Shown: positions 7,503 through 58,159 of the stretch, one piece after another
Numbering within the stretch: position 1 is the first letter of the stretch
Layout of the letters: every line of letters begins with the position of its first letter
Source: Capitulum mitella
Lineage: Eukaryota; Arthropoda; Thecostraca; Pollicipedomorpha; Pollicipedidae
DNA length: 64,000 bases
NCBI GenBank assembly: GCA_030062745.1
Contig: CP099849.1
Location: forward strand, 22,122,144 to 22,186,143
Reading direction: 5' to 3'
Notes under the pieces: generated by a model
The model's input: the letters and a program-made list of their open reading frames with translations, nothing else
Databases searched by the model: none
What the model was told of the DNA's origin: nothing
Position numbers and translations under genes: made by a program

Positions 7503-10500
7503 CTGCCGGCCGCAACACGCGTCAGACGGTGGCATCACAGAGCCGGCGGCGGGCGGCGGACGGCGGGCATGACCCCGTCGTCGCCTCCTGACGTGCGGCA
7601 GACGCCAGCCGGGACATCCGCTCCACGGTACGGTTCTTCAGCGCCGCCGCGGGCCCACGCCGCAGCTACGGACCGCACCGGGCTCGGCGGTCAGGACCGG
7701 GGCCGGCGGACCGGCGTCGCGTCTGTTCCGACACCGGGACCGGCAGCCGACCAGCTGCGGCCGCAGGGCAGCAGCAGGAGGGGCGGCGGCCGAGGACCGG
7801 ACGGCCCCACCCCCGGCCGGCCGTCGGCGGTCTCCGGCGCCGCCAGCGGACACCTGACCAGGGTCAGGCAACGGCGGACGGTCCGAACACGGCCACACGC
7901 GAGCCTCGGGTCAGATACCAGCACGGAGCTTCCAGTGGACTTCCGGTGGTACCCGTCAACGTCCGCACTTACGGGAGTCGAGTTAACTAACCATAAAAAG
8001 AATAACATTTCAAGTTGCGTTCTTTCCCGAATGACACTTAGGTAAGAAAAACGCCAGTGGTTTAAAACAAGACCCAGACGAGTCATTATTCAGCATTTTG
8101 ACAACTCCAAAGAGTGTCGGAGAAACACATTACAAATACAAACATTGTACCTATTTGGCAAACGCTTTCTCGTCACGCATCACTAAAGCGCTTGCCTTAC
8201 ATTACCAATCAAGTTTCCCAGACCATGACCAGGATCTAACATTACCCTGCGGACCACGCCCTAGTATCGCTGCACGTGTGGCCCCACGCGACCCTAACAC
8301 CACCTACACACCAACTAGTGCTCAGTGGTGCGACCCTAGCGCCACCTACCTTCCAGATGGTTCTCGATGGTGTCCATGCGAGCCAGCAGGGCCAGCTGCA
8401 TCTCGGTCACGTGATTCAGCAGATTCACCTGGCAGGTGGCCGGATCAATGCGCGCCTCGCTGACCGGCGCCGCTGAGGGCAGGCCAGGTCGGCTCAGGTC
8501 AGGTCGAGCCAGGTCAGCAAGCAGGGAGACACGCCGGTGAAGTGCGACGACTCGGAAGAACACCTACATGCTTCGAACTTCCACCGGGTGTCCAATCTGA
8601 ACTGGGATAATACTAACTGACTCGTCCCGCACACCGCCCAGAAAAGTACAATACAACGGGCCGGGAAAATAATATGGAGTGACGGTATAGGCAATCGGTT
8701 CCTTTTACAGGGTCTCCGCCCACAACCTACGAAGTCCGGTCCCCACCCCATCCCGGGAGCAGCGGCGGCATCCGGACGAGGCGCTCACCAGGCGGCGCCG
8801 GCGCCGGCTCCGCCACCGAGCCATCCATCAGCTGATCGAGCTCGCTCTGCGACGGCAGCAGGCCGGCGATGACGTCCAGCACGCCGGTCAGCGGGTCGTC
8901 GGCCTCCTCGAGCGCGGGCGGCGCCTCCTCGGGCCGTCCGGCGGCCGCCAGCGAGGCCGTCAGCAGCGCCGTCTGGTCGCTGGACAGCGCCGCCAGCGGG
9001 TTCGGCTCGGCCGACTGGCCGGCGTCGGCGGGGGCCGCCGGGCCGTTCGGCGCGGCGGCGGCCGGCTCGGTCGCGGGGCCGCCGCCGTCGCCGGCGGCCG
9101 GCGCCGCGTGGTTGGTCGGGCCGTCAGCGATGAGGCCGGCCGCCGAGGTGACCGCCTCCAAGAGGCTCGGGTTGTCGTCCCAGGCGGCGCCCAGCAGCGC
9201 CGCCGACTGGTCACCGGACGCCGCGGCCGACTGGCCTCCCGGCGCCGATTGATCGACCGCCGCCGCCGCCGGCTCAGATTGGTCGCCCAGCGCCGGCGCC
9301 GACTGCGATTGGTCGCCCGCTCGATCGGGAGGCGGGGACCACGGTCGTGCCCAAAGGTACAGCTTTGGGTGATTCAGGTCGCTGGAACAGTGTGCAAAGC
9401 AAGTCAGCAAAGCAAGTAAAGGTACTGACAGTGGCATAAACGTTCCTTATGGATAGGCAATGACTCTACGAATATCGCGCTCCCAAGAAGACGGAAACAC
9501 CGACGCGATCTAACGCCATCGGACCATCAACAGGGTAACCAGAATAGCTTAAACCGTGTTTTTCATACAATGCTTTTAATATTTTCGTTCAAGCACCTCA
9601 TTTTCCACATAAAACACAGCTTAATTAATCAGATAAAGATAATCGGATAATCAGATAAACTATTTACTTTCATAATTATAAAGAATAGCTATGAGAACAA
9701 ACGGCTTCTGTCCCCGTACTCGCACACCGTTTCCGGCTGGCGGCACTCGGCCGGCGCTCGGCCCCACCTGGCGATGGCCAGCTTGGTACGGAGACTGCGC
9801 ACCACGGTCTGCAGCGCCAGCGTGTTGGCCGCCAGGTCGCAGGCGGCGCGCATCACGGCCCGCGTCCGCTCCAGCGAGCCGTCCTCCGGGCCGAACGGCA
9901 GCCTGCCGGCACACCTGGAGTCAGGCGGCGGAAACGGCCGCCTGCCGGGACGGCAGAGACACTGCAGCCTGCAGGGACAGCGAGACACTGCAGCCTGCCG
10001 GGACCGCGAGACACTGCAGCCTGCTGGGACAGCAAAGACACGGCAGCCTGCCAGGACAGAAGAGACACTACAGGCTGCCGGGTCAGCTGATGTCAGGCGG
10101 CGGGAACGGCAGGCTGCACGGACACCACACCCCGGCGGAGAGAGGTGGCCGCGTGTCCCGCACCACAGAGACACCACAGCCTGCAGGGACATCGCAGCCT
10201 GCAGGGAAACCAGAGTATGGCTTCGACTCCTCGTCTAATTTCCCCAGCTACAGCAGCGTACCACTCGGCCGAACAGCCGTCTTATGACAAGAAAACCTCT
10301 GGCTTGACTGGCGGCCTATGAAATAGCTGGTGACCACTGAAATGCACCAATAGATCGCACCATCACGTCAAAGCGCCAATGATCCAACGCCCACGACAAG
10401 CCATCACGCTGGACAGAGTTGGGCACATACAACGTAGTAAAAACGAGTTCTGCACAAGCTACGGCCACGGACGCTGACTTGGGGGGGGGGGGGCAGGCCC

Positions 10501-13500
10501 GGACCCCCTCACCTCAGGATGGCACCGTCCCGGAACATCTCCTGGTCCCAGACGTAGCGCTGCGTGCGCCGCACGCGCCACGGGTGCCGGCACGTGGCGC
10601 ACACGTAGTGTGGCGGCGCCTCCGTGTCGCTGGCGATGCCCAGGCAGACGGCGTGCTGCCACGACATGCACAGCTCGCACTGTCGGGCGCCAGAGGGGCA
10701 CGGTCAGACGGCCGCTGGCTGGACTGGCGGCGGAGAGCCGACCGGGCAATGACGAGAAAGAGACGCTCGAGGCAGACCGCTCGACTCACAGCCAACACCC
10801 GCGACAGGCACAGAGCAGCGCATACCGAGAGCCGCGATTCGAAACCATACCAGGTCCAACAGTAGATAATGATAAATTGACGTCACGACCCTTATTCGCG
10901 GCACGCTTTTGCACCCATCAATCACCAAGAAAGTACGGAGACGGTATAACATATGTACTATAAACCAATATACCCTACGCAGTAGGGTAAAGGGCCCTAC
11001 TAACGCACGGTGCCCAATGACGCACAAACACAAGGAAAATGACCATGGATGTCGCTAAAACATATACAGGTTCGATGATTGACTTTATCTGGCGCGTCGT
11101 TCTTTTCTGCAACCGTGGTGTGCGCTCCGGTAACGTCGGCAAATTTCAAATGTTATGGCCCAGTATGTAAAACCAATCTCAAGATCGCTTTTCGAAAACA
11201 TGCTTGACGTAATATTGCATTTTTCCAGTTGTGTGTTACTAGGACGTAAAAACACATCTCGCTGGCCAGGAAAGTCGGCCACTACAGGTATCATCCACAT
11301 GGCTATGATCCTGAGTTCTGTTACGGTGTGCGTCATTTGAACTGTGTTGCACATAACGAAGGACCTTTCATTCTCTAATTGCGCATGGTTACTTTCCAAC
11401 GTACTAAAAACAAAAAAGAAAATGTTGTTGTCCTGCACAGATCAGGCATTTTACTTTACAATCTACTCAAAATCTCAAGGACGTTAATTTTTCACTATTT
11501 TGTTTAAGCATTGCAAACCCTCGCCAGTACCCGCGAATCTGCCTTCAACAGCACAAGGTTGGGCAGTGCGACAGCCCCCTCTTCGCGCGACAGAGCACCG
11601 AAACAAATACACGCGTGTAGTTTGGTCCTTCACAGGTCACTGACACCATGAGTGACACACATTTCTAAAACTGAGAAAGAGTTATGACCGTAAAATACTT
11701 AAAACGTCTGTCGTCTGATAAGGATTGCCGCAATGACGTTATTTCTCAATAACATGCCCTCAAGAAAGACGTCACAGGTCAATGACCCGCTTAGGCATTC
11801 ACTTCAAATTTTCGGAGAGTGCATAAAAAGATTCAACAATCATCTACGTAGTTTCACAGTGATCACCGCAGGCGTTCTGAGGGAAAACAACAAAAAGGTA
11901 CGCGGAATTCCACCAACCCACCTCTCTGTTCTGTGTCTCGCGTTCTGTGCTGTACTGTGTTCAGTGTACACGGTTTTTGAAACTAACCTGGACACGAACA
12001 GTTTGCAATATATATAATAATACACCGACTGGATCGTTCGCCTTGCGTGGCACAAAGTGGAACTCAACAAGCACATTAGTTGTTCAAGTTCAATGTTCCC
12101 ATCCCCAATCGGCAGGTGGTCTGTTGCATCAACTTTGTATTGTGTTCGGTGCAAACAGTGTTTGAAAAGAACCTGGTTAACACGAACAGTTCGTACCAGT
12201 ACGCTGACTGGATCCTCTCCTGTGTAAGAGAAACTGAAACTCAAGAAGCACATTATTTGTTCAATGTTCCCATCCCGAATCCACTGGTGGTCCGCAGAAA
12301 CAGTTTTACAGGACATATTCCTGAACATAACTGATTCTGATAGATCCTGAACATAACCCTATTCCTACCCCGTACCTCACTAAACACCGACTGAATACGG
12401 CGTACATCCAAAAGGTGGGGAGAAAGCGGGCGGGGCAGGGGACGAAGGAGAGAGGACGCAGGACGCGTGTCCCATTTTCCATCTTCTGATGGTTTTCGGG
12501 AAACAGTAGTTCCATTTCACGGGGGACAATGAAGTTATGGTAGTCCGTGTTCTTCTCATCCTGTTTCGCACCAGGCCTCACCTTTTTAACGCCTTAGGTC
12601 TGCGGCTGGCCATTACTTTAACAAGAATAAAAGTATTTCCAAAATGTGCGTTTTTGGGAAGCCTGGCTTTGCATCATTAAGAAGCAAGGTTCCTAATTAC
12701 GCAGATTTGAATACTTCCCTTAAAATTAATTTATCACCTTATCTCATTTCATGAAGACCCTTTTTCTATTCACGCTTTGTTGGCAATCAAATCAGCTTGC
12801 TGTTTCCCGAATCAAGAGCGTGAACGTCATACAGTTAAGGCTAAATCATTATTTAATCCTTAGGTGTGCATGAATAGGGTCCGTTCCACCATACCGTATG
12901 CGCAGTATACCATCCAGTGCAGACATATTACGACTGGAGAGCATGCATTTCCAAGGAAAACATAGTGACCATCGACCGCAAGAAACGATCTGCAGGGCTT
13001 TTCCGACCGATGGGTTTTTCCAACCCCGTTCAGCGATTACGCTGTTACGTACCTCCCGACTCGGGAACGCATAACTCTGCGTGCAACGCAGAAGCCTGCT
13101 ATACACGAGAGGTTTCCAAACTGGTGCTTGGGATTCCCTACTGTACGACGTGAGCCAACATGGTCGATCGTGGCATGGCAAGCGGATGAAAAAGGGTTCG
13201 TAAGTATGCAGCATACATGCTGGTTTAAAATCAAGATTCATTGGACTGGCGTGGAGAGCCCGACAACCAATCAGCTCTCCAGTAGGCTGCACGAAGCACA
13301 ATGCAACGACAGACAACCCATTACAAAACGAGCACCATGGCAGACCCATGCGAACAAACCTGGCAAAAAACATCCTCCGACCTGACACAGGTCACCACGT
13401 CGGCCTTTGATTCCGCCCGCCATTCTACATGCACAAGCGACAGACGACACTAAACATCTCATCTCTCCGGGAAACCCGTCGGTCGGGAGAACCTTGCGTG

Positions 13501-16500
13501 GTTTTCCCAGCTGCTGTTCTGAGTGTCTGAATCACCCGACCGACCTCGCTGACAGCGGTAAGGGGGAGGCGGGAGGGTTAAGTGAAGGGAAGGCCTCGCA
13601 GCAGAACACACTGTGAGCCGAACGGTCACGTCAACGCCACGTTCGCTGCAGCGTCAGTGTCAGCTGAACGTTGGACCACGATGCGCATCGCCGCTCTGTT
13701 CCTGCTGGTCGTGTTGGGGCTTGCCGCCTGCCTTCATTCAGGTCAGTAACTGCTGTCAAATGGACGCCTTTGATCACGCCTAATCATGGGAGACCAGGCC
13801 CGTCCACGCCCAGACTCGCGATCCACTGGGTCTCTTACGTCACGTGCAGTCGGTCGTAGGCCCACGCCGTTTTCCGTCCGTCCGACGTTTTCCAGGGACT
13901 GCCGGCGGCACGCTGGGCGAAACGAAACCGAACGACTGCCGTACACGTGGCTGTCCGCGTGGCGAGGAGTGCCAGAGCTGTCAGACACGACCGAACGGGC
14001 CTACCAGGTATCACTGCAACCCGCCCGGCATAATCACCTGCCGACGCTAGATGGGCCGGCACGCTGACTGGCCACAGCCCGGTCTGGGGACCTGAACAGA
14101 CCAATGAATGGTGAACAGAGTCAGATGAAACTGTCACCGGCACGTCACACCGACGACAAGCCTCTGCAGACTTCTGGAGAACTATTAACGCGCGTCTTTC
14201 TGAACTGATTGAACAATGCCGTGGCTAAATACACCAGGTAATGAAACCTGTCTTTGGAGCATGTCAGAACGCCGAATTTTGACCTGAGGCATTCTGTATG
14301 AGTATTGTATAGTCGCGCAGACCACCGTCTATAATCTGGCGACCATCAGAGGGCATTTGCATGTCTCTTTGACCATGCAGAGACGCGGACGAACGGGTCA
14401 TGAAGCGATTGGCAAATACGCCATGTTTAAATTAGATGTCTTTCGGGATCCAAGACCAAGTACCAGATGAATCCAATCGCGAATATCAGCCGCACCAGCC
14501 CTCGTTTCACGTGGGCTTTCCGTGGGTTTTCCCAGTCACTATCCCGACCAACTTATCTCCCTCGCTGCCCGGGGCAGGGGGGAGGGCGAGGGTAAATGAA
14601 GGAACAGGTATGCTGGACACCGCTCTGTCGACCAATCCGGTCTGCCCGCGCGTCCCCTCCTAAAGGCGGCCGGCGGCCGGCGGCAGCGTCAGTCGGAGCT
14701 GAACCGCCGGTCACAATGCGCGCCGCCGCTCTCTTCCTACTGGTCCTGCTGGCGCTGGTCGCCTGCCTCCAACCAGGTCAGTGCCCGCTGCCACGCGGCC
14801 GCATGCGCCGCTGAGTGACCGCCGTTCCGCAAAGAAGCTTCAGTAGAATCGCTTGGCCCGCGTATCCCATCAAAGCTCCAGCCGGCTCGCTGGTATGCCA
14901 CCGCTGTCCCACGCAAACTCCGCCCACGTGTGCCAGTGTGCGCGTCACTGGAGCCGGCATCTGACGCCTCCTCTTCCAGGAGCTGCCCAGGACTGCCGCA
15001 TATTCGGCTGCCCGCCGCGCCAAGCCTGCTTGCCCTGTCAGCCACTTCCGCATCGGCCCCCGGTCGAGTACCGCTGCGGCCGGCCCGGCACAATGCTCTG
15101 CAAAGGCTAGACGACCGGGACAAGGTCTCGCGGTCCGGACCAGACCACTGAAGATGACCAGAACCTGACGACTAGCCGTCACCGGCGCTTCGCGCCGACG
15201 GCGGTCTAGCTGACTAAGGGAACGTTCGGCAGACGTTTGGGCGGCCAATGTCGCACGGGTTTTGCGCTGCTTGAAGCTCCCGTGGCTTAATAAACGCAAT
15301 AATTATTTTTCTGAGTATGAAGAGTCGACGGGTTTAAATTCCAGAGATCCTGTGAGAATACTGCACGGAGGCACGCTGACAACCGCCTACAATCTGGCGA
15401 CCACTGGAATACCTTCGCGCGTCTCTACCGTAACGCAAAAAAGCACAGCTTCTCCGACTGACAACCGGCCATGAACGACCATCACATACAGATTAATTCA
15501 ACTATGTTTCCCTCGCAGTCCGGGACGAAGAATCAAACTAACGCAGTCGCGAGCACAGTTACCAGAGAATACAATGACTACAGTTTTAAGAATAAATCGG
15601 CTGCAAGCTCCACTTGCAAAACATGAACTATGGCGGATTCATATCGATAAGACTGACACAGACCGACCTCCGACCTCTAACGTGAATCACCACGTCGACC
15701 TTTACTCCCCCCTCCGTTATTCTGCGTGTGCTGACAGATGACATTAAAACGTCACGTCCCTCAGTATGGCGAGGTCTCCTGTTTCCCAGCGCTTTCAGAG
15801 TCCCCATTCCGAGCCCTTAATCACTTGATCAATCCCCTCGCTGCCCCGCACAGGTAGGGGGGGGGGGGGGTAACTGACGCGCAGGAGTTCCATTAGCCAA
15901 CGCGGTCCTTCCGCGTCCTAAGCCAAGTCGAGGCCATATGTACCAAGATCGCGCGACGCTGGATCCTCGAATCACGTACGAATCTCGTCCGCTCCAGTGC
16001 CGTGAGCTACTGCGTCTCGTATACCATGAGCCATCGAGCCACCTCCTTTTCCAGGAGCCGCCCGGAAACTGAGCAGGACACAGGACTGCCGTACACTCGG
16101 CTGTCCGTGGGGCGAGGAGTGCCAGCCCTGCCAGCCACTGGCCAACCTACCAGCCTCGTATATCTGCGGACCGCCAGGCACCGTGGCCTGCCTAGGCTAG
16201 GCTGACCGGGACCAGATCTGGCGGTCCGGCACAGACCGTCAACGAACCACAGGCCGGTCTGGCGGTCCGGCACAGACCGTCAACGAACCACAGGCCGGTC
16301 TGGCGACCCGGGACAGACCAATGAAGATGACCAGAGCCGGATGACGAGCTGTCACCCGCACCTCACGCCGACGGCGAGGCTCGGCAGACACCTTTATTTT
16401 TTGCGATTTGTTATATACATTATTTAAATAAACACATTAATAATATACTATTACAATTATATTTACGACTTAATAAATCATGCAAAGAAAACGTCTCTTG

Positions 16501-19500
16501 GAGTGTGCACGGAAAAGTTTTAACTCGAAATATTCCTTGTTAGTATTACCCGGTTTCGGGTAGAGCACCGTCTACAGTCTGGCGAACATCGGAAGATCTT
16601 CGCAACTCAGCGCAACAAAAGTAGTCTACAGTAGCGAGCGGTTCATGAACTGACAACCATACAGATTAATTAAGTTATGTTTTCCTCAGAGTCTGGGACG
16701 AAGTACAAGACTAATTCAATCGTGAACATGATTATTCAGTTCAAGAATACACTGACAACAGCGTTACGCATAAATTGGCTGCAACCTCCAATGACAAAAA
16801 GAAAATCATGGCGAAATCATGTCTTCAAGCCTGACAAAGAACGATCTCTGACCTCTAACAAGAATCACGTCGACGTTTACTCCCCCTTCCCCACCCGCCA
16901 TTCCGGGGTGCAACTGACAGGCCACATTAAAACGTCACGTCCTCCCTGTTTGGCGCACGAGGCCTCCTGTTTTCCTCCGCTTTCAGCGTCCCTATTTCGA
17001 GTCCCACAATCGCTTGATCTATTCACTCGCTGCCCCGGACAGGTGGAAGGGGGGGGGGGGGCGTAACTAAAGCGGAGGCGTCCTGCCAGCCAATGCGGTC
17101 CGTCCGCGGCCTTCACATCGCCGGTCGGCAGCCGGCGGCCGGCGGCAGTGTCAGTCGGAGCTGAACAGTCGGCCATGATGCGCACTACCGCTCTGTTCCT
17201 GCTGGCGCTGCTGGCATTCGCCGCCTGCCTTCAATCAGGTCAGGACCTGTTGTCACACGGCTGAGACCCCGCGAACGCACTTCAATAGGGATGGTCTAGT
17301 CAGTGTGCTGTGTCGAAGTACCAGCCAGGTCGAAAAGATGGCTAGCAGAATCATTGCTCTACGCCAAGTTCAGCCCGTATGTGCCACTACCGCACCACAT
17401 CGGATCCCCCGGGGGCGTACGAATCTCGTCCGCTACAATGCTGTGAGCTACTGCGTCTCACGTGCCGCGAGCTGTCGTCTCCCGCCTCTTTTCCAGGAGC
17501 CGCCCGGAAGCTGAGCAGGACACAGGACTGCCGTACACTCGGCTGTCCATGTGGCGAAGAGTGCCAGCCCTGCCAGCCACGGACCGACCTGCCCGCCTCG
17601 TATATCTGCGGGCCGCCAGGCACCGTGGCCTGCCGAGGCTAGGTGAACAGGGACCAGATCTGGGGTCCGCCACAGACCGCTGAGGGACCGCAAACCGCTC
17701 TGGCGGTCCAGACCAGACCGACGACGATAATCAGAGCTAGGTGGCCAGAAGTCACCCGCACCTCGCGCCGACAATGAGTCTCGGCAGACATCAGGACAGC
17801 TATTACTGCACGTGCTTTGCAATGATTCAAAACAAACATGGCTCAATAAAAGAGACGGACTGTCCCGAAGTCTAAACGGATGCCGAGTTTTAACCCGACG
17901 CATTCTGGGTGAGATGACACCTGGAGTCGCGAGAACCTCCGTCTGCAACCGGACGGCCATCGCAAGACCTTGGCAGGCCCCTGGGGCAGCTTCACTGGAT
18001 TCAAAGCCTCTGCTGGCGGACAGGTCGTGACGTCGGCAGAGAGCCTCTCTGATCACCGAACATTATTCCAACGCCGGGTCGCTCAGGCTTTGTTTGACCA
18101 TACCTCCGCAACCATTAATCCCCCAAAAATGTGTGAGATTTTCCATCACGCCGATCAGGACATTATTTTAATCGACATTTGCTGCATCGGGTCAGCTTAT
18201 GGCCCCGGGGAAACGTGCTAAAAATGAGGGCAATTGAGGTGACAATACGATCAACTTTGGATTATTAAGACGTAAGGCCCATGACCGGGCACGGAAATAA
18301 ATGACTTCAAAATGGCTCTGGTCACAAGAAATGCGGAAATGTCAGTTACCTCTGACGCCAGGATAAACAGAACTGATGTTCTCCTATCCTGGTATGTCAT
18401 GTGCATCCCAGCCAGCCTAACGCCAGTCTCTGAGAATCAACTGCACACCATTTCAATTAAATCGCAACCAGGAAGGCCGTTTCGATTTCGTGATGATCGG
18501 AAATGCTTTTAAACAGAGGAATGTTGTAATTCTTAAAAATTCCGCCGCAGTTTACCTGCCCGATGCGACACATACCGGTACGCATAAGTCCGACCGTAAG
18601 TTCACCCACCACATCTCGGCAGCCGCAATATACCGACGGTAGGAGGCTCGCGTTATTCGGTTTATATCTTCCTGGCGCTTCGTTTCCTACCATCATTCAC
18701 CCGGCAAAATCAAACATAGTACTGATGGGTTTGCAAGATTTCAGCATTGCGAGGCAATATGAGAATTCTCGCGAAGCGCGAATTTGCCTGTTTTACGGTA
18801 ATTTTGGCCAGGACAAAACATAAGACCCTTCCAGCTTGAGGTCCAGAGCGAAACAGCTCTCGCGTGCCCAGAATCGTTCCAGTCTGACCAAGACCGACAC
18901 AATCTACATGTGATGACACTCTGTGACCCCTGTGACCGTTCTAACCGATCCGTGGCCGGTATGGTATGTCCGTGACCACCTAAATCTGCCACTTTTCAAG
19001 CCCGTTCGTGATCGTTCCCGCCTGTCCATGGCCGGCTCAGCCTGTCCGTGACTGGTCCAAACTGTCCGTGACCGGTCCAGCCTGTCCATGACCGGTTCCG
19101 CCTATCCGTAACTGGTCCAGCCTGTCCGTGAACAGACCGAGATGTCCGCGGTCGGCACGGCATGTCCGCGCGGCGCCGCTGACCTGAATCATGAGGCCGT
19201 CCTCCTCCTGGTGGCCGCAGGAGCAGTTGATCACCTCGTTCTGATCCAGCTTGTCGCCGGCGCCCGACTCGCTCAGCAGGTCATCTTCCGGCGCCGCGTC
19301 TGTCGGCCGGCCAGATCAGGTCAGGTGAGATCAGGTCGGCATGTGGGGTATCGTGACGCAGAGTCGCAGCGCCGAATATGCAACAGATGGAGATCCTTCG
19401 CATCGAGCGCCATGGTTTGGCTGATACAATCACATCAGAATCACCACGACAGACCATAGCTCACGCTCTTCGGCGGCGGCCAAAAAGACGACTGAGCATC

Positions 19501-29832: not shown

Positions 29833-32800
29833 CTGTGGGACGAACAGGCGGGGCGTGGTCAACGGACGGAGAAGCAAGAACATTGCGGAGCCATTCGAGT
29901 TTAACGTCGTAGAAGTGGACGGACATCAAAGACGCAGAGTTAAACATTTTCCTCATGTGTCACGCAAACATATGTTTTGTAGTATTTAGTGAGGTAGGCA
30001 AATATTAGCTTTGCCTTGCGCCATCAATGGATGCGTGCGATTACTCAGGCTAACGATGTTTGTCTTTCGTACAACTTGCCGAGTTGCACAGAAATATAGC
30101 TGGGACGTAGCAGAACAAAACAGGCCTAGCATGCCGCGAGGTCCGCGACACACCGTGAACCTAAGAGGGACAGTTTTTTAGGCATTCGATCATCAGGTCT
30201 TATCCCGGCGTTGCGAACGCAAACAACAGCTCCGCCACTCTGCAAGACACGAGCTCTCTCCTGATGCCACGGCAATACCTTTCTACAACGCCTTTGGTCG
30301 GAGACAGGCTATGCTAGGAGTCACAGTTTACTTCGTGTACGATTTCCACTGCAAGACTGCTATACATAAGCACCCGTAAAAATCGTCACTCGTCATCACG
30401 AAAGAGCCGGACGCCGCCAAATGACTCCTCCTATGCTCACCACTCCCTGCTCACCTGAACTTCCTGCCAGTGCGCGCCTGGGTGCCGCCGTTCCACACCA
30501 CGTCGCCGTCGTCGTAGAAGAAGAAGACGTCCAGCTTGATGCCGTCGGGCGAGCGGAAGCTCAGCTCGAGGCTGTCGCTGGGCCGGCCGAACCGGTGCAC
30601 CAGCCGGAGTCGACGCGCCTCCATGGCCCGGAGTCACCTGCTCCACGCTGGGCAGCGCGTGGTCCCCGGCCCAGTCCCGCAGTGAAGTGATGTGCACGCC
30701 GATGTCGACGTCGCCCATGTACGGAACGAAGTCGCACTGCCGGTAGTAGCCTGAAATGGACAGAGAACTTCTCTGGGATGCCGAGCATGAGAAAGGGCGG
30801 CTCCTTTAGGAAAAAATGAGCATGCCAATGAAGAAGAGGCTGAGGCACAATTAATTACAAAAAAATATGAAAATGGAATGAAAAAGATAAAAATATAACA
30901 GAGACAGCAAATCCATCAACAAGCAGAAGACATCCACGATGTAGCATTTTTCCGTAGATGTAGCCCTGATGCCTGACTAGAAACACAACAGTCTGCATTA
31001 AAATCATAGGGTCAGAAAATGAATGACTAGCATGAAAACATGGTGAATGGATGGTGGAGAAATGGGCAATAAAGGGGGAGAAACAAAAGGCAATAACAAG
31101 GTCTGATTACAGAAGCAGAGAATGGCTCAGGGCTCATGCAAATGGTCTTCTGATACAATGCAACACAAGTGGATTGCATATACTGTCAGATCCAAGGGGA
31201 TGTGTCAGCCATGGTCACTCCACAACCAAGATTGGGGGGGGGGGGACAATAGGCATTCAGTCACCCCAAAACAAATGGCTATTACTACACAACCAGTTTG
31301 AAGTCGCTGGACACCCTGAACCCACAGCTCATATCTCCCATCCGCCCCCGGTTGCTAACTAGCTGACCTATACCATCCATACCCCGCAAATTCTGGTCTG
31401 CCTACCCCCTCCAACCGAGCCAATGGACCCGCACCTGACTGCACACAGCCCCAGCTGACCAGTCAGTCCGAGCAAATGGCACCACTGGCAGGGGACGTAC
31501 CCAGACATGTGCCACTGCTGAGCCAGAAGGGCACTTCCAATTCATCCAGGGTGGTGGCTGCTGCGGCCAGAAGGCGCCAAGCGTGGTGCCGGAACCGCTC
31601 TGCTTCCGGCGACACATCCCGGCCCTCCTTCAGGTGAAACTGGTGTGCCTGCTCCTCATCACAAGCCACAAACCGGGACGACCGCAGGTGACGGCAGAAT
31701 GTGGTTCTGTTGGCTGGTGTGTCAAGAACAATGCCTTGCTGAATCACAAACCTAGGGTGAAGGGATACAGCTCTGAACCACAAGGCATATGGACATATGG
31801 GGTGGCATTTTTGCAGGTGGATTGCCATTCAATCTGTGATTGCCACAGTCATTCAATCAATGAAAAGGAACAAGGAGCTTGGGGCAGCCAGGCACAAAAT
31901 CCTTGTTTGGGACAGATGACATCTTTATTGTTTGTATCCTGTGAATGTCTGAAGTTATCCTGTCCTGCACAGGGAAAAAAACAAATTATGTTTACTTTAT
32001 ATATACCTTACTGAAGGCAAACAATGAACACAGAACAACAAAAAGCCACTTTCACAGCACTGAAACAGTTTACAAACAGCTACCAGTAAATGGCAGCACA
32101 GTCCAGAGACATAGGCAGGGTTGCCATAGATGGCCACAGCCCCCTCTTGACACTGAAAATCCAACATTTAAACACAAAAATGCAAAGAAATAAAAAAAAA
32201 TCCAGACCTTGAAAACAATGGAGTCAAAATCCAGGATTTTCAGTTAAGGAGGGGGAGGCTGTTTGACCTGGCCTCCTCTTTGGCAAAATCCTAGTGATGC
32301 CCTTGGTTCAGTTACAGTTTGAGCATATTCAGCCCTTCATGTGCAGCTCACCTTTTCATCCAACCTTCATATTTCCCAATGAAAAACCTATTAGAATCTG
32401 CTGCTGATGCATCAGGCTTTGATGCCAGTTTATCAAACCACCATGAACCATCGTCTTGCTGAAACCAATTTGCAAAGTGCAAAAGGTGCCCATTATGGAC
32501 CATGATGAAGAAATGCGTGATGACATCCTGAGCACGCTGTTTTCGAGATGTAATGAATGAGCTTCTAGGCCATGCTGACAAAACAGCCGCCTGCTGGAAA
32601 AACAAGGTTCTTGTAAAACTTATGTTTTCCACATGATCCAACAATGGCAAAAGTAAAAAAATTGCATAACACAATTAAATCCAAAATTTTATTGAGAACA
32701 CATTTACTCAAATGCACAGCAGCTCAATAGGATACTTACCAGGGCATCTAGGTCTGTGGGTGTTGTCCATAAGATGCAGATTGTTTCACAATTACAACCA

Positions 32801-44600: not shown

Positions 44601-47600
44601 GAGTCGTCCCTGCAGTCTCAGAATTATTAGTTTTTTTTGTCAGATAATGACTGTCGCAGTTTTGCACCGAGAGCGACATGAGATTGCTAGCAGCGGCCCG
44701 CCTAATTTGTGGCCGGAGGTAATTATGACTCATGCTTCGTGCCTTGCAATTATTTCTAGTTGACTTCTGCGGTAACCGAAGCATTGTCTTTTCGGTCGTT
44801 ATCTCTGTTCTAAGCTCAAGGTGACATTTAGCTGGAGGTCATGCGATCGTCTTTAACATACGTTCAGTAAGGCGGGCACTCCGTCGTAAATTGCTTCTTG
44901 CGCTTCTTTGGAGATACATCAGGTGGACGGTAAAAACCCGCTTTCAAGGAACTCGGCGCTTGACGTCATCGACGGACCTGAGCGCCAAAAGGTCGGCTTT
45001 TCTCGACTGAGCTATGATTAGCTGCGGCTGCGTTTTTGCTCGTCGATTGCCTTTCCGCGTAACGAGACTTGACGGGCAAAAATACTTGCCCCGGTGCGTT
45101 CAAGGTCCTGGCCGTGACAGGACGATCCAGAGACGTTTTTTGTTCCGTCTGGCCGCCAGTCGTCGGTCTCCGCCGGGTCGGCACTCAGCGTATAGCGCGT
45201 GCAGCGGACGACGACTATCGTCGCATCTGTGGCGGCCGCCCCGCGCGCGGCGTCCGGAGCGGGTCGTCTTTGTCTGGGCGCGACCCGCGCCCGGGACGGG
45301 CCGGCACGACCTTGTGAAGGCCGCGCGCTGGCGCCGCCGTTCCTGGAGCTGGTCCCCGGGCCGCCTCATCGGCAGGTGCACTCGGGCTCGGTGAGAGCGG
45401 GCCGAGGGAGGGAGAAAGGGCCGACCCGGACGTGGCGGGCGGAGGGAGGGAAAAGGGCCAACCCGGACACGGCAGCGGGCGCCGGGCGGCGGCCAGCGGT
45501 GAGGAGACGGTTAGGCTCGCCGGTGACGCTCGCTGACTCTGGTCGTCTGGTGTTACGCTAGCCTGCTGGAGGTTATTTCAGCGGCCTTTCGAGAACGCCG
45601 TGCGAATGGGACGGAATTCAGTTGCCTTTGAACAAACCAAGGCCGTAGACTCGCCGAGGGACCGTTATGTAACTTTTCTCCACTGTTCCAGAAGCACGGA
45701 ATTCCTCTTAACTCCGCTAAAAAGTAACTGTGCTGCCGCGTTTAACCTGTATGTCTTGAACGGTTTGGTGTACCGGCATAACGTAGCTCTGCTGTTACAA
45801 GCCTTTCCCTGTGCTTGTGTGCTATAGTGGTACCTTGGCTGGGTCACTGACCGGAACTTGGCGGCAAGCACCCGTGTGGGCAGTGTGGCATATTTGCAAG
45901 CATCGCGTCGTGATCGGAAGGTCCTAGGTTCTGGGCGGGGTAATGGCGACGTTTGCTCCCCCCCCCCCCAGTCGCGACAGCTGGCATGAGCGGTCCCAAT
46001 CCTGTCAGTGTAAACTTTCGACGAAAAAACCAATAACGAACCGGCCGGCTGCGGCACTCGTTAGCTCTAGCAGCTGACTCTGGAGCTGACGGCGGGGCGG
46101 CAGGCTCCGCCGGCGGGTGGCTGGCCGCGGCGGGGTCCTGCGACGGCCGGCGGCTCCTGTCGGCGCCGTGACCGACCGGACCGGTCCGGCGGGGTCAGCG
46201 CGACCGGGCCGGCCGTGTCGCCGGCCGGTTTCGGGACCGCACGCCGTTCTCACGGACGGTCGGCCGGCCTTTGCGCCGCGGTAGCTGCGCTGCTTAAGTG
46301 CTCCCGCCACGGACTCTGAAGTCGACCTCTGATTCAGATCAGCGCTCCGCCCGGGCGTTTGCGCCGTGCGGTAGCATCGTTGAGCCGGTGGGGATGTACC
46401 GGACAGGGTGGCCGCGCGACAACTCAGCGGGAAGACCCCGTCCGAGCGGACGCGGCAGCAGTGTCGTCCATTCGGCGCGGCGCCCGCCGAGCCCGCCGCT
46501 GTCCGCCGCCGCCGCCGCGCGGACGGCCGGCCGGCCGGCCAGCGCCGTCCGCTGACCCGCCGGGAAGGCTGGCCGGCGGCCGCCGGCCGCGCAAGGAATC
46601 CGGTCGCGCCGGACCGATAGCATCGGTATGCGCGCGCCGCCGCCGCTCCAGCTGATGGTACAGTGACCCTGTGATTCGTGCACGGTGCCGCCGACAGGCG
46701 GTGGCACGGTGACCCGTTAAGCCGGCCGGCCGCGAGGCGACCGCCGTGCCGCTGGCGTATTGTGTTGTCTTGTTAACGTACCGCCGCGCCGGCTCGGAGC
46801 GACCGCTTTCGGCGGCGTCCGTCTAGCTGGCAGCCATTCTCTCGTGTAGCGCGACATGTGATTGTTGGCCTTCGTCCGTGCGGACCTTTCTCGGGGTGCT
46901 AGGTTCCAGTGACGGTGGGCCTCCGGCTGGCCTCGAAGGCCGCTCCGCTCCGCTGCCGGGCTGCGCGACGGCGGCCGGCCGGCGCCGCGGCAATCGTCTG
47001 GCCGCCTGTCGGCGTGATCAGGCGCCATCGCCGGCGCCGGCCTGTTTGTGTTTGTCTCGCCGGCGGTGGCCCGCGGCCGGCGCGAGCTGCCACCGCCGGC
47101 CGGCGCCGGCGCGGCGTCCGCCGTCGGCCGCGACGCCGCGCGTCGGCGGCCCTGTTGCGGGGCGGCCGTGTCGGCGGCGACGGCGGCCGACGCGTCTGCC
47201 GCGCCGGCGCCGGTCTCCAGGCGCTGTCGCCGGCCGGCGGCCGGGCCGACCCGGCCGAGACGGCCGGCCGGGCGGCGCGCGCCGGCCCACTAGCGCCGCC
47301 CGGCGGCCGGCGGCCTCCGGCGGCCGAGCGCCGGCCGCCGCAGTGGCCTCCCGCAGCGGCTGGCGGCAGTGCGCGCCGGCAGCTCGCGCGAGCTGGTGTG
47401 CCCGTGAAGCGCCGCCCGCGCCGTCGGTCGTGTCATGTGCGCTGGCCGGCCGACATGATCACCACCATGACTCCGTCCAGTGCCGGAGCCAGCGGGCCCG
47501 AGGCGGCCGGAGAACAGTACCCGCCGCCGGCCAACGGCTACGAGTATTACCCCGACTACCGGTACATGGAGTACCAGCCGCACATCTGCGAGGTGTACAC

Positions 47601-50600
47601 CCCCGAGTACGGTGAGTGACGGCCGGGCTCGGGTCGCCGCCGGCGGGTGTTGTTGTGGCGGACGTGCCGGCGGCGCCGCGGGCGGCGCGCCGGCCGGCCC
47701 GGTAATAACGGTACCCCCGCGGAATCCGCCCGTCAAGGACGCGGCGACGTGCCCGTTCCCACCGGGCACCTGAGCGGGCCGGCTGGAAGGGTGCGCCGCG
47801 GCGCCGGGCCGCCGGGCCCGTCTCCGGGCGCGGTGCCCGGTCACGACGCGGCGACCGCAGGCGCAGAACGGCGGACGACGGGCGCTCTGATGTGGCTCCG
47901 CCGCCGGCGGCAGCGGAGGAAGGTCGGGCCGCGCCGCCGGCGCCGTGTCTGGCCCGTCGGGCAGGCGTGCCGAGAGCCGCGACCCTCGCCGGGCCGACGC
48001 CTGCCGGGCCGGATGTCTGGCGCGCGCCGCCGCTGGCCGCGCCGGACAGGTCCCGTTTGCGGCCGGACGCGGCGGTGCGACCGGCCGGCCGGCGCAGATG
48101 GCGCTCCGCGGAGAGCGGCCGTGCCAAGCGGCGCACGACCGGCCGGCGCGGGCCGCCGCCGGCGTTGAGTCACTGGAGGTACATGTTTCGCTTCACCGCC
48201 CGCGGTCGCCTGGAGTCCAGTTAGCGGGCGTCGACACAGAGCTGGCCTCCGACGGCTCGCCCTTGACGGCGTGATGACATGGGCCGGTTAGACGGAGGGA
48301 GGACCATCGAACCACGCTGGCCATTCACCACGGACCGGAACTTCCCACACGCTGCCGTTCAGGACCCGTCGTGCATGGTCGTCACGCCGCCACGAGTCTG
48401 GGATGCTGACGCGGCGCGCGGCGGCGATCGATCGTCCGTGCCTGATGACGGCGGCCGCGCTCCCCGGGGCGGGCGCGGCGGGCGCGGGCGCCCTGTGCCC
48501 GTTCCCAGGCGGCCGGTTTCACCTGTCGGCCGGCCGTCACGGCTGGCGTCACGGCCGGCGGCGGACGGGTCACGCACGCCCTCCGCCTCGGCCGAGACGG
48601 AGGGAGGCCGCCGCGGCTGATGGCGCCGCTGACGGCCACGGAGGCCGACGGGGAGGTGGGGAGGTAGAGGGAGAACGAGAGAATTGGGTTACAGTAGGAG
48701 GTGAGGAGGAATAGAGGAGAACTGTGCGGCCGTTGACGTGGTAGGCCTGGGCCGGCCACTTCGCGTGCTGGAGTAATGAGAGCGAATGCAGGTCACGTGG
48801 CCGGGAGCGTCGCAGAAGGCTCGGCGGTTTTTCGGAATCTGTGGCGCTTGACGCCGGGCCCGAGCGGCAGCTGTTTCAGATTAGTGGTGCTTGAGCCGCC
48901 GAGTCCGGCCGATCATCTTCAGCCGGCCGCAGTCGCCGCTCGGGAGGGCCGTGGCCGCCCATCTCCGGCCAGTCGATCGGGACTCTCCGTCCCCGAGGGA
49001 CCGGCGCAGCCGAGTCTCCGGCGGCAGCGCCGGCGGCGACGATAAGCCGGCGCTGTCTGGCTATTTTTACCGGCCGACTGATCGCCGTCTGGCCTGGCAC
49101 GGGCCGCCGCTGTTTTGGGTCGGCGGCCGCGGTCCGTCTGGGCGGCCGCCGAGAGCTGGCGGCGCATTGGGCGGGACGCACCTGGCCGGCGGCGCGCCTC
49201 GCCGCGTCGGCTTCCGGGTCGGCGCCGGCGCCGGGAGCCGGGAGCCGCGGGACCGGGCCGGCCGTCTGGGGCCATCGATCGGCCGGTGGCCGGTCAGCGG
49301 GTCACCGGCGTCGGCTCCGGCGGCTCCGGCGGCTCCGGCCTGGTCTGGCCCCGGCTCCGGCCTCGGCCGGCGTGGGTCGACGCCGGGGCGCGGGTGTGAC
49401 CTGGGCCCTGGTCAGGCTGGCGGCGCCGCGTCGTTGGCGCCGCCCCCGGACGTCCGAACTCCGGAGCCGGCGTGTTTACCCGGCGCAGCCGCCCGGCGCC
49501 GGCCGGGCCGCTGACCTGGGCCGGAGCTTGGCTGGTGCCGCCAGCGCCGTCTGACGTCAGCGCCGCTCAAGGCCATGCGCGAGACTTCACTCTCCGAGCG
49601 GCGGCCCGGTTTATTCTCGTGGCGCGCCGGCGAATCTGCGCGGCGCCCGGGGGCGTCGCGTCGCTCCGGCCCGCTCTGTCCGGTGCGCGGCCGGCGCGGG
49701 GCCGGCACCGCTCGGCCGGCGCGCGGCCGTCTGGCGCGGCCGGGCCGGCCGACGGCGGCCGGGCCGACGGCCGAGCTCGGCCGCGACCCTGGAGCGGCCT
49801 GGCCGGCCCAGACGTGCAGCGGCCGGCCATCTCGGCCTATCGATCCTGCACTGCTGATGCGACCGCCGGAGGCTGCCGTCGCCTGGGGCGAGAATCGATG
49901 CGCAATCGATGCAGCGGAGTGCGGCGGGCCGCGTGGGCTTCTCACGCGCGCCGGCACGCACGCGGCGCGCGCGCCGGCGGCGCCGGCGCGCTCGTCGTTC
50001 GATGGGAGTCGGTCACGGGTCGTTGGTCAGGTCTGGCGCCGTATGTAACGGCGCGGCGGCGGTTGTGGCGCGCCGCCGGCCGCCGGTGGGCCGCCGGCGC
50101 GCCGGATGCAGCCGTCTGACGGCCGCCTGCGCCGGACGTGAGATAACTTCTCGGCGGCTTCCGACGAAGCGTGCGAACGCACCGTGGGGCGGATCCTGAG
50201 CGAGTGCCGTCGCTGCAGACTCTAGCCATATCTAATACATCAAAGGCCGCGGTCAGAAGCTAAGTGCCGACTCTGACTTCTGACGTCCTTGACGTTTCCG
50301 TGCTTTGGAGTGTCGTGCCATGACCGTCGCGTCGGTAAGGTTCTCCATTCACGAAACTGTCCGACTTGCTTCTTAATTCGCACAACAATCCAAGGTATTT
50401 CAGCCCTCTCCTATTCACTCGATCCCGACAAAACAATGCTGGTGTCAGACAAAGAGCCGCCTGGCGGACGGCAGGTCGCCAGGCGTGACCCGCGCCCGGC
50501 GCCGGCGCCCAGCCGGCCTCCGGCGGCACCTGCCGACCGGCGGCGGCTGCCCGGACGTCGGCCGTCGGCCGTCGGCCGGCGTTTTCAGAGCGTGAACGGC

Positions 50601-50812
50601 CGGCCGACCGGCCGGCCGGTTTCACCAGGCGCCTGCGTGCCGCCGTCACCGGCTGTGCGAGAGAGAATCTCCGGCACGGACAGCGGCCGGCAAAAAGCCT
50701 GGCGGAGAGCGCAGGCGCGGCCCGAGAGCGGTGGACGTGCGGGAGGCGCGGCAGGCGGCTGCTGTTCGGCCCGCCGTCCGGCCGGAGCGGCTGGCGCGGC
50801 TCGGCTGCGGGC

Positions 50813-50855
<43 letters not shown>

Positions 50856-53800
50856 GGACGGCCGCCGCGCCGCCGCGGACGGGTCGCTCCGCGACGCGCG
50901 CCGTCCGGCCGGGCGGTGGTGGCGGCGCGTGGCATTGACCCGGCCGCCGGCCCGGATGACGCGCGGCACGGTGGAACGGAACCGACCTCCAATTGGGGCG
51001 GCCGTCGCCGCCGCGCCGGCCCCGGATGCACGGCGGCCGCATGACGAGGCGGCGCCGCCGCCGCCCGCCGCCTGGCACCGCCGCCGGCGGCCGTTTGAAT
51101 GAGTGATGTCATCGAGCGGCCCGGAGCGCGCGGACGTGACCTGACCCGGCCGGGCGGTGGGAGGGCGCGCGGACGTGCCTCGCCGAGCCCGCGGGGCGTG
51201 CTGGGTGACCCGGCGCCGCCTGCGGGCGGCCGGACGTGACCCAGTGCTCGGCCGTTTTTCCGTCGGCGCCCGGGCGGAAAAAGGCAGCGGCAGCCGGCGC
51301 CGGCGAGGGACGTTATTAGAGATGAGTTTTTACGCCGCCGCAGACGTTGACGTGTCCTAGATACGTGCCGGCCACGATCGCCGGCCGTCGGCGGCGGCGG
51401 CGCGCCCCGGCGCACGGCGGCCCCGCCGGCGCCGCGGGCGGCGGACGGGGTCGGCGGACCTTAGTCCGGTCGCCGACCCCGCCAGCCGGCCGCGCTGCGC
51501 CACGCCGCGCCGCAGCTCCATGATTTTTTAGCGCCGCCATCGGTCGGATGGCTGCGGTTTTGCTGGAGCCGGAAGCGGCCAGATGGATTTCGCCTGTTGT
51601 TGCGGCCTGTTTGTGTGCACTGTCGGTGCCGGGCCGGCTGGCCGGCCGGCCGGCCGCCCGCCTGTTTGTGTTCGCAGGCGTCCGGTGTTTGTTGGATCTG
51701 AAGCTGGCCGCTCAGCTGTTTATGTGATCGCGCCCGGGCCGCCCCCGTGAAAACAGGAGCGCGCCGTCGGCCGCCAAGCCGCGGCCATTTTTTGTGGCCG
51801 TTAGCGGCGGCCTGTTGTGACGGCGGCGTTTTGTTTTGTCCGCCGCCGATGGCCCGCGCCGGCTTTCACCGGGCCCGGCGGCGGCCGCGCCGGCGGCAGT
51901 CACAGGTGGAGGGCCGACGGCCGCCGCCGCCGCCGCCGCTGCCGTCCGAGCCGGTCGGGTCGAACCGCGGCGGCCGCCGCCGCGGGTCGGACCAACGGGA
52001 TATGCGCGGCCGGTTGGCCGGCCGGCAAGGCGGCGCCCCGGCCTTTCCTCGCGCTGGCTGTCCGTGATCTGGGCGGCGATCACGGAATGCGGCCGACTTT
52101 CCGTGCTGCGGGCCGAGGTCGGAAATGCGGCCTGCCGGCGCGCCGGCAGCGGCGACCCTGGCCCGCCCGGCATCCGGCTGCCCCGCCTCGGGCAGGGCTG
52201 CCGGCCGACAGCCGTGTTTGTCGTGCCGGAGTCTGGCCTGCCCGGCGACAGGACTGTCGGGCGGGAACGGGTGACGGCGCGGCCAGGGAAGTGGTTCCGC
52301 GAAAATTACTGGAGAATATTTTGCTGCGGCGCGAGAACGGAGTTAGGTTCCGTTTGCTTGGTTTACGTGTTGAAAATAAAGAAGGGTACATGTTAACACT
52401 CGCTGGCAGTGGCATCCTAGTTATGACAGTGTGGTTTTCCTGGTTCTTATTCTGATGCATTCTGGGAGGTTTTGCTGGGAGGTTTTATTTTGCACATAAA
52501 AAAGCGCAGTCTTGGTCCCGGCTGGTTCAAGACCTTTTGAAGACAGTAGTGTGGTTATGAATAGCATGGGTCCGTCGCAGTTAGTCTGCAAAAAGTCACG
52601 TGACGGGGCTGAATGCAACGAAGCTCCTGACGGGCCCATTAGTTTCAACCACAGCGTTTTGGCCGTTTTTCGTGCTCTTTCCTTACATGAGGTATGGTTG
52701 TAGACGTTGGTATTCATGGAACGTGCTGACGTATTTTCATTTCGCTACTCTTCTCCGCTGTTCCGTGGTATTCTGTTGCACTCATGAAGCACTTACAACT
52801 GTCGTGGCTGGAAATTTCCGAGAATTATTGGGGTGGGGGGGGGGATCAGCACGGATTTCTGACCGTTTCGTTCCAGTCTTTGCCATAGGCCTGATGTTAA
52901 AACCCCCTGAATGTCGGGGCGGGGTCCAAATCAACCTCCTCATCCTCCCGGGATCATCAGCCATGACAGCTGTTGAAGTTATGTTTCTGAAAGTGACCCT
53001 GGTGGCTGGTCCTTGCGCCAGCAAACGACTAATAGCCATGCCGAGGAATTCGCAGTTTTGTACACGTGCGTTAAGTGATTGAGCCATGAGCAGTTTGTGA
53101 CCGCCCCATGACCTACCTCCACCTGCACCCACCACTTTCACGTTGTGCTCGTTTTCGAAGAATCACGTCAGTAACACCATGGGGGAACTGGGTACTCGTC
53201 ACCTGGCGGAGTGAAACCCAACTGACTGTGAACTGCCTGGCGGACCCGGCCGCTATGCGTCGCTGTGGTGCTGCCGTCCTGAGAGGCAGACAGCGACGTC
53301 CCCGGTGCCGTCCACTCCAACGTGGGCAGCGCTGAGCCGGTGCATGTCCCGGCCGGCGGCGTCTGCTGCCCCGGGCTCGTGACGTGCGTGAACGGCGTCC
53401 CGGCGGCAGTCGGCCCGGCCGGCCCGGCCCGGCCCGGCGCCGGCCTCTGTCACGCCGCTGGGCCGCAGCCTCCCGGCGGCGGCGGCGCCGGCGCTCCCGG
53501 ACGAGAGCCGGCCGACACCGTTAGCCGCCGCCGCCGCCGAACGGTTCACGGTCAGCGGAAACTAGGCCGTGCGCCTGCGCGGCGGCGGCGGCCGGCCCGG
53601 CCAGACGCGGCCGACGACCGACGGCAGCTGCGGCTGGCCGCGACCCGCCGCCGAGCTGCGCCGTCTGGAACTTGCCGAGAGGCCGCGACTGGCTTTGAGC
53701 TGCTGAGAGATGCGGCCGGCTGCGCAGGTGGTGCGAGCGTGGCCCCATCCGCCTGATGTTCTGTCGCAGCCAGAGCTGCGTTAGTCGTGCTGGGGGATGT

Positions 53801-58061: not shown

Positions 58062-58159
58062 GTGAGTGCCGCCGCCGGTCGGCCTCACCGTCTCAGCGTG
58101 CTGTCAGTCACCGGGGGTGTTGTGTGCCCTGTGGCGGTCCGTTCCCTGTGACTCGGAGT

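Follow-up and report, generated by a model that had tools for sequence, protein, structure and literature searches.

The occurrence of four repeated units inside a single intron of a putative chromatin gene in the thecostracan Capitulum mitella raises the question of whether these units make up a gene family and, if so, of what they might encode. The units follow each other on the plus strand, from position 13681 to 17642 of the 64-kb window (the whole stretch of contig CP099849.1 analyzed here), and comprise three complete two-exon genes (1, 2 and 4) and one partial copy (unit 3). Our analysis points, with a reasonable but far from complete degree of confidence, to a nested family of tandemly repeated genes encoding secreted, disulfide-rich peptides. 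According to this explanation, local tandem duplication of units of about 1.0-1.4 kb would have given rise to a small peptide family that runs antisense to a PHF20-type gene, within the intron that splits its PHD finger. In every complete gene, a dedicated core promoter would precede the signal exon, a phase-1 intron would separate this exon from the mature one, and the product would be a secreted, weakly cationic peptide of 40-48 residues with six cysteines (seven in gene 4).

The gene structure and the tandem origin of the cluster are established by the sequence. Alignment of the units identifies them as tandem copies, and every complete gene presents the same order of TCAGT initiator, signal exon, phase-1 intron and mature exon. 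The initiators are in keeping with an arthropod and stand closely 5' of the ATG in the three full genes. The introns of genes 1, 2 and 4 measure 154, 203 and 258 nucleotides, respectively, and all are of phase 1, with donors CAG/GTCAG and acceptors TTCCAG/G (the slash marks the splice site). A canonical AATAAA is found 3' of gene 2 (15289), unit 3 (16427) and gene 4 (17845). The three intact genes and the broken unit of the original prediction are thus found where it had placed them, and the cluster is nested, as it had also proposed, in an 8.5-kb intron (8,504 nucleotides) of a minus-strand chromatin gene, with the two halves of a PHD_5 domain in the flanking exons. Its claim that all units share the same parts stands for the initiator block, donor, acceptor and stop of the three full genes and fails for unit 3, which has neither promoter nor signal exon.

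A further trait of the family is the cysteine pattern that the original prediction had assigned to all units. The arrangement C-x4-C-x5-C-x2-C-x(11-12)-C-x7-C is found in the four mature exons, nowhere else in the six frames of the 64-kb window and in none of 100 windows resampled from a first-order Markov model. Mature cysteine counts are 6, 6, 6 and 7, with no two cysteines adjacent, and three disulfides can be presumed. The seventh cysteine, in gene 4, falls in the C-x5-C loop; one cysteine of this peptide may be left unpaired, or the peptide may dimerise. Secretion is suggested by the hydrophobic N-termini of the three full genes (peak 10-residue hydropathy 3.00-3.58), this signal peptide call being a hydropathy measure rather than the output of a dedicated predictor, and the cleavage site is likewise presumptive. 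The mature peptides of these genes have isoelectric points of 8.3-9.0.

Conservation among the units supports their coding nature. Identity is higher in coding than in aligned non-coding sequence in all six unit pairs. For complete coding sequences, which in the three pairs involving unit 3 amount to exon 2 only, one-sided Fisher tests give p values from 0.0057 to 4.9e-10, and exon 2 alone yields 0.024 to 4.9e-10 in the five pairs other than genes 1-2; these identity tests call for caution, as adjacent positions do not vary independently. The units have retained splice sites, reading frame and cysteines where their introns and flanks diverge, and gap lengths in the aligned exon 2 DNA are divisible by three. 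The exon 1 segments are 77-80% identical among the three full genes; a second caution is that their 64 columns include the first ATG of gene 4, a triplet whose counterpart in genes 1 and 2 belongs to the 5' leader. Between genes 2 and 4, the core promoter segment is identical at 43/50 positions, as compared to 119/190 in the segment taken from the 5' flank, with which it overlaps at 17125-17147; the core promoter figures are only 24/37 for genes 1-2 and 25/37 for genes 1-4.

For the mature exons, Nei-Gojobori estimates of the ratio of non-synonymous to synonymous rates (dN/dS; 95% bootstrap intervals in parentheses) are 0.29 (0.06-1.22) for units 4-3, 0.41 (0.16-0.96) for 4-2, 0.77 (0.37-1.69) for 4-1, 0.39 (0.14-0.98) for 3-2 and 0.84 (0.42-1.67) for 3-1. 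Counting genes 2-1, two of the six intervals (4-2 and 3-2) lie wholly below 1 and none wholly above it, and the signal exons yield 0.55, 0.53 and 0.30. According to the original prediction, genes 1 and 2 diverge more in their mature parts than in their flanks, which it had taken as a hint of fast evolution. Neither idea is borne out by the data: exon 2 of these genes is 65% identical against 57% for non-coding sequence, exon 2 is the more identical portion in all six pairs, and the check run returned no dN/dS above 1.00.

Unit 3 deserves separate consideration. Its BLAST segments against unit 4 end at 15919 and restart at 15918, leaving 17113-17358 of unit 4 unmatched, so that a stretch of 246 nucleotides encompassing the core promoter, exon 1 and the first part of the intron is missing from unit 3. 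A deletion of about this size would have left the unit devoid of promoter, signal exon and the start of its intron. The remaining exon is nonetheless well preserved: exon 2 is identical to that of gene 4 at 135/146 positions, compared with 504/722 in non-coding sequence. Under neutral drift at the non-coding rate, 15-22 non-synonymous differences would be expected and 5 are observed (P 0.0012 to 3.1e-6); when the synonymous rate serves as reference, the expectation drops to 8-12 and the case becomes weak (P 0.14 to 0.011), and a Fisher test of non-synonymous versus synonymous differences between unit 3 and gene 4 gives p 0.069. Sliding windows between units 3 and 4 are identical at 52-58/60 positions over exon 2 and at 40-47/60 around it, a jump that would also suit gene conversion. 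Unit 3 can thus be read in three ways: it may have suffered a recent deletion, its exon 2 may have undergone gene conversion, or this exon may still be in use. In the last case, the signal exon of gene 2 would be joined by splicing to the mature exon of unit 3, used as an alternative 3' terminal exon, and two mature peptides would share a single promoter and signal peptide. The frame does stay open when gene 2 exon 1 is joined to unit 3 exon 2, and no cryptic signal exon turned up among the ATGs of 15300-16039, none of which opens a frame whose first 30 residues exceed a 10-residue hydropathy of 1.8. Even so, we deem it quite improbable that unit 3 is alive in this manner.

Several observations weigh against the interpretation of the cluster as a functional peptide family. 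In genes 1 and 2, the advantage of exon 2 (83/128 identical) over non-coding sequence (355/621) falls short of significance (p 0.065) and dN/dS reaches 1.00 (0.45-2.57), figures that are compatible with relaxed or mildly accelerated change. Gene 1 presents AATACA (14228) and no AATAAA. Structure models of the peptides are either mediocre (predicted local distance difference test 70.5, predicted template modelling score 0.44) or poor (50.0 and 0.19). The grand average of hydropathy is negative in all four mature sequences and net charge at pH 7 is only +0.7 to +3.8, which argues mildly against a purely membrane-active peptide. Exon 2 is frequently open in its alternative frames as well, making an open frame by itself weak evidence, and the ranking of functions proposed below relies on general traits of small secreted cysteine-rich peptides, not on homology. 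The missing AATAAA of gene 1 and the dN/dS of genes 1 and 2, together with the loss of promoter and signal exon in unit 3, could be taken to mean that the whole cluster is decaying, its former genes being now inactive and unit 3 just the most visible case. The four mature exons, however, are all open with their cysteines intact, and coding identity exceeds non-coding identity in every pair, which makes general decay a rather remote prospect. The openness of other exon 2 frames, in a GC-rich window with many long open frames on either strand, might also suggest that we are dealing with chance open frames in repeated GC-rich DNA. This idea is disfavoured by the resampling and conservation tests, since chance would hardly reproduce the cysteine pattern or maintain splice sites, frame and cysteines amid diverging introns and flanks, and we regard it as highly implausible.

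A family of secreted peptides thus remains the preferred interpretation, and the next issue is its relationship to known families. The original prediction was unable to place the pattern in any family, and our searches concur: none of the four sequences has a Pfam match above cut-off (only DUF7537, E 0.38, and TB, E 0.14, appear below it), and no significant match is found in NCBIfam (a prokaryote library), in PDB sequences or in fold searches with VIA-align and Foldseek, the top Foldseek row being a granulin-like fragment (E 3.6, probability 0.09). In the C. mitella assembly (477,042,490 bases in 16 contigs), a DNA search with unit 1 returned five matches, all inside the cluster (units 1, 3 and 4); the absence of unit 2 among them indicates that relatives as diverged as unit 2 are missed by this search. 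A protein search with gene 4 exon 2 recovered all four copies, the weakest being gene 2 (E 3.5e-5). It also gave three poor matches on other contigs (E 1.08, 3.32 and 4.91), which we attribute to chance, as none of the three conforms to a loosened cysteine pattern and two contain a stop. More distant paralogues elsewhere in the genome are possible. These searches covered the species' own assembly, and they hint at a possibly lineage-restricted family. No paper describing the cysteine pattern, or peptide genes nested with PHF20, was found in the literature text searched, a body that leaves most subscription journals outside its scope.

As to function, the most likely role for the putative peptides is that of secreted defence or inhibitor peptides. 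An extracellular defence effector acting on microbes is the foremost candidate, though a tentative one, and an effector inhibiting foreign or own proteases is a more doubtful proposition; a hormone, signal or matrix peptide ranks below defence and seems rather unlikely, and part of the probability falls to none of these roles. In a narrower form, the peptides could be compact canonical protease inhibitors protecting secretions such as adhesive or moulting fluid. They are small, disulfide-rich, probably secreted and tandemly arranged, and protease inhibitors are common in barnacle adhesive, with 11 reported in A. amphitrite and 28 in P. pollicipes (PMC8371367). The lack of any Pfam family above cut-off and of significant PDB sequence or fold matches makes this an unlikely alternative. 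Another proposal would see in the cluster a set of signalling peptides or pheromones, secreted ligands possibly processed at the KLSR motif that gene 4 and unit 3 present between signal and first cysteine. Genes 1 and 2 lack this motif, which hence is not a family feature, so that a signalling role appears improbable.

In this nested arrangement, the peptide genes would be transcribed antisense to their host. The host intron splits a PHD finger: PHD_5 positions 7-25 are found in the preceding exon (which ends at 19184; E 0.005, below cut-off) and positions 25-55 in the following one (E 3.6e-8, above cut-off), and joining the two halves at the splice sites brings the match to E 5.6e-16. On unchanged minus-strand frames of the window, MBT (E 2.1e-6), MBD (6.2e-9) and PHD_5 (3.6e-8) exceed the Pfam cut-off; Tudor_2 (3.2e-5) and zf-C2H2 (0.0027) fall below it and emerge only on pieces joined at guessed splice sites, the four unjoined frames of the Tudor and C2H2 regions returning no Pfam family. 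This domain set fits a PHF20/MBD-R2-type chromatin gene, whose architecture we take to be MBT/Tudor, MBD, C2H2 and PHD, in that order. A minisatellite with periods of 20, 40 and 60 nucleotides occupies 18999-19131 in the host intron, at some 50 nucleotides from the donor of the PHD finger, and, in the sense of the host gene, the second PHD exon is followed downstream by a 27-nucleotide tandem array of 5.6 copies (9940-10087).

Coordinates of the peptide gene cluster and of its host intron in the 64-kb window
Feature	Position	Strand	Basis
Host intron, 8,504 nucleotides, PHF20/MBD-R2-type gene	10680-19183	-	donor after 19184, acceptor before 10679
Gene 1 initiator-like TCAGTG	13654-13659	+	conserved block in unit alignment
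Gene 1 exon 1 from ATG, predicted signal peptide	13681-13741	+	open frame; donor CAG/GTCAG; peak 10-residue hydropathy 3.45
Gene 1 exon 2, predicted six-cysteine mature peptide and stop	13896-14050	+	acceptor TTTTCCAG/G; cysteine pattern; TAG 14048-14050
Gene 2 initiator-like TCAGTC	14689-14694	+	43/50 core promoter positions shared with gene 4
Gene 2 exon 1 from ATG, predicted signal peptide	14716-14776	+	open frame, donor, hydropathy
Gene 2 exon 2, predicted six-cysteine mature peptide and stop	14980-15110	+	frame, cysteine pattern, acceptor
Unit 3 exon 2 only, with acceptor and stop	16055-16200	+	open frame, all six cysteines
41-nucleotide tandem duplication, 2.5 copies, 3' part of unit 3	16217-16319	+	
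Gene 4 initiator-like TCAGTC	17151-17156	+	sequence match
Gene 4 exon 1, predicted signal peptide	17175-17238	+	second ATG at 17178
Gene 4 exon 2, predicted mature peptide with six pattern cysteines and a seventh, stop	17497-17642	+	frame, cysteine pattern, acceptor

Beyond the cluster and its host, minus-strand exons at 30437-31828 resemble fukutin, with FKTN_N (E 0.00085) below cut-off and LicD (E 2.4e-5) above it on exons joined at a guessed site. The sequence of plus-strand frames at 46903-58151 is reminiscent of an FNDC3-type protein; two frames tested in this region gave no Pfam match at E 0.001. Near 36 kb, GC skew changes from negative to positive and AT skew turns clearly negative; around the same point, the genes seem to pass from the minus to the plus strand. 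The window contains no RNA gene detectable as an Rfam match at gathering score and no tRNA.

If expressed, the peptides would represent a new six-cysteine scaffold. More generally, four copies at a single locus offer an easy layout in which to watch a family of secreted peptides being born and losing members, and the intron of the host gene provides a landmark for seeking equivalent clusters in the genomes of other species. It is also a clean case, this array, in which to ask whether a promoterless copy can survive on the signal exon of its neighbour.

Comparison with known peptides helps to delimit the novelty of the family. TIL, antistasin, defensin, SVWC and granulin-type domains are likewise small and disulfide-rich, but the four sequences have no match to them above the cut-off of the Pfam copy used, in which the first four of these families are, we assume, contained. 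Crustins and other WAP proteins are cysteine-rich crustacean defence peptides too, and they are built on an eight-cysteine, four-disulfide core, in contrast to the six or seven cysteines of the cluster peptides. No Pfam match to WAP (PF00095) is obtained at E up to 10, a range in which HMMER filters drop most weak matches. WAP proteins are reported in barnacle adhesive, alongside many protease inhibitors and immune-type proteins (PMC8371367), and crustins also feature in the barnacle literature. A parallel in kind is PpRcys1, a previously uncharacterized, small cysteine-rich peptide with a signal peptide, encoded in the genome of the barnacle Pollicipes pollicipes and reported to be inhibitory to bacteria in vitro (PMC12195476). 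PpRcys1 has a mature part of 85 residues and 12 cysteines, at 22, 29, 43, 47, 49, 60, 61, 69, 73, 77, 83 and 96, a spacing unlike the six-cysteine pattern described here (PMC12195476). TjRcys1, from the copepod Tigriopus japonicus, is again a small cysteine-rich crustacean peptide with a signal peptide, but it is reported to have 11 cysteines, some of them adjacent (PMC12842719), whereas none are adjacent in the cluster peptides. Neither PpRcys1 nor the adhesive inhibitors show anything about the cluster family itself. Set beside these systems, the peptides of C. mitella would be, as far as these tools reach, new as a family and ordinary in kind.

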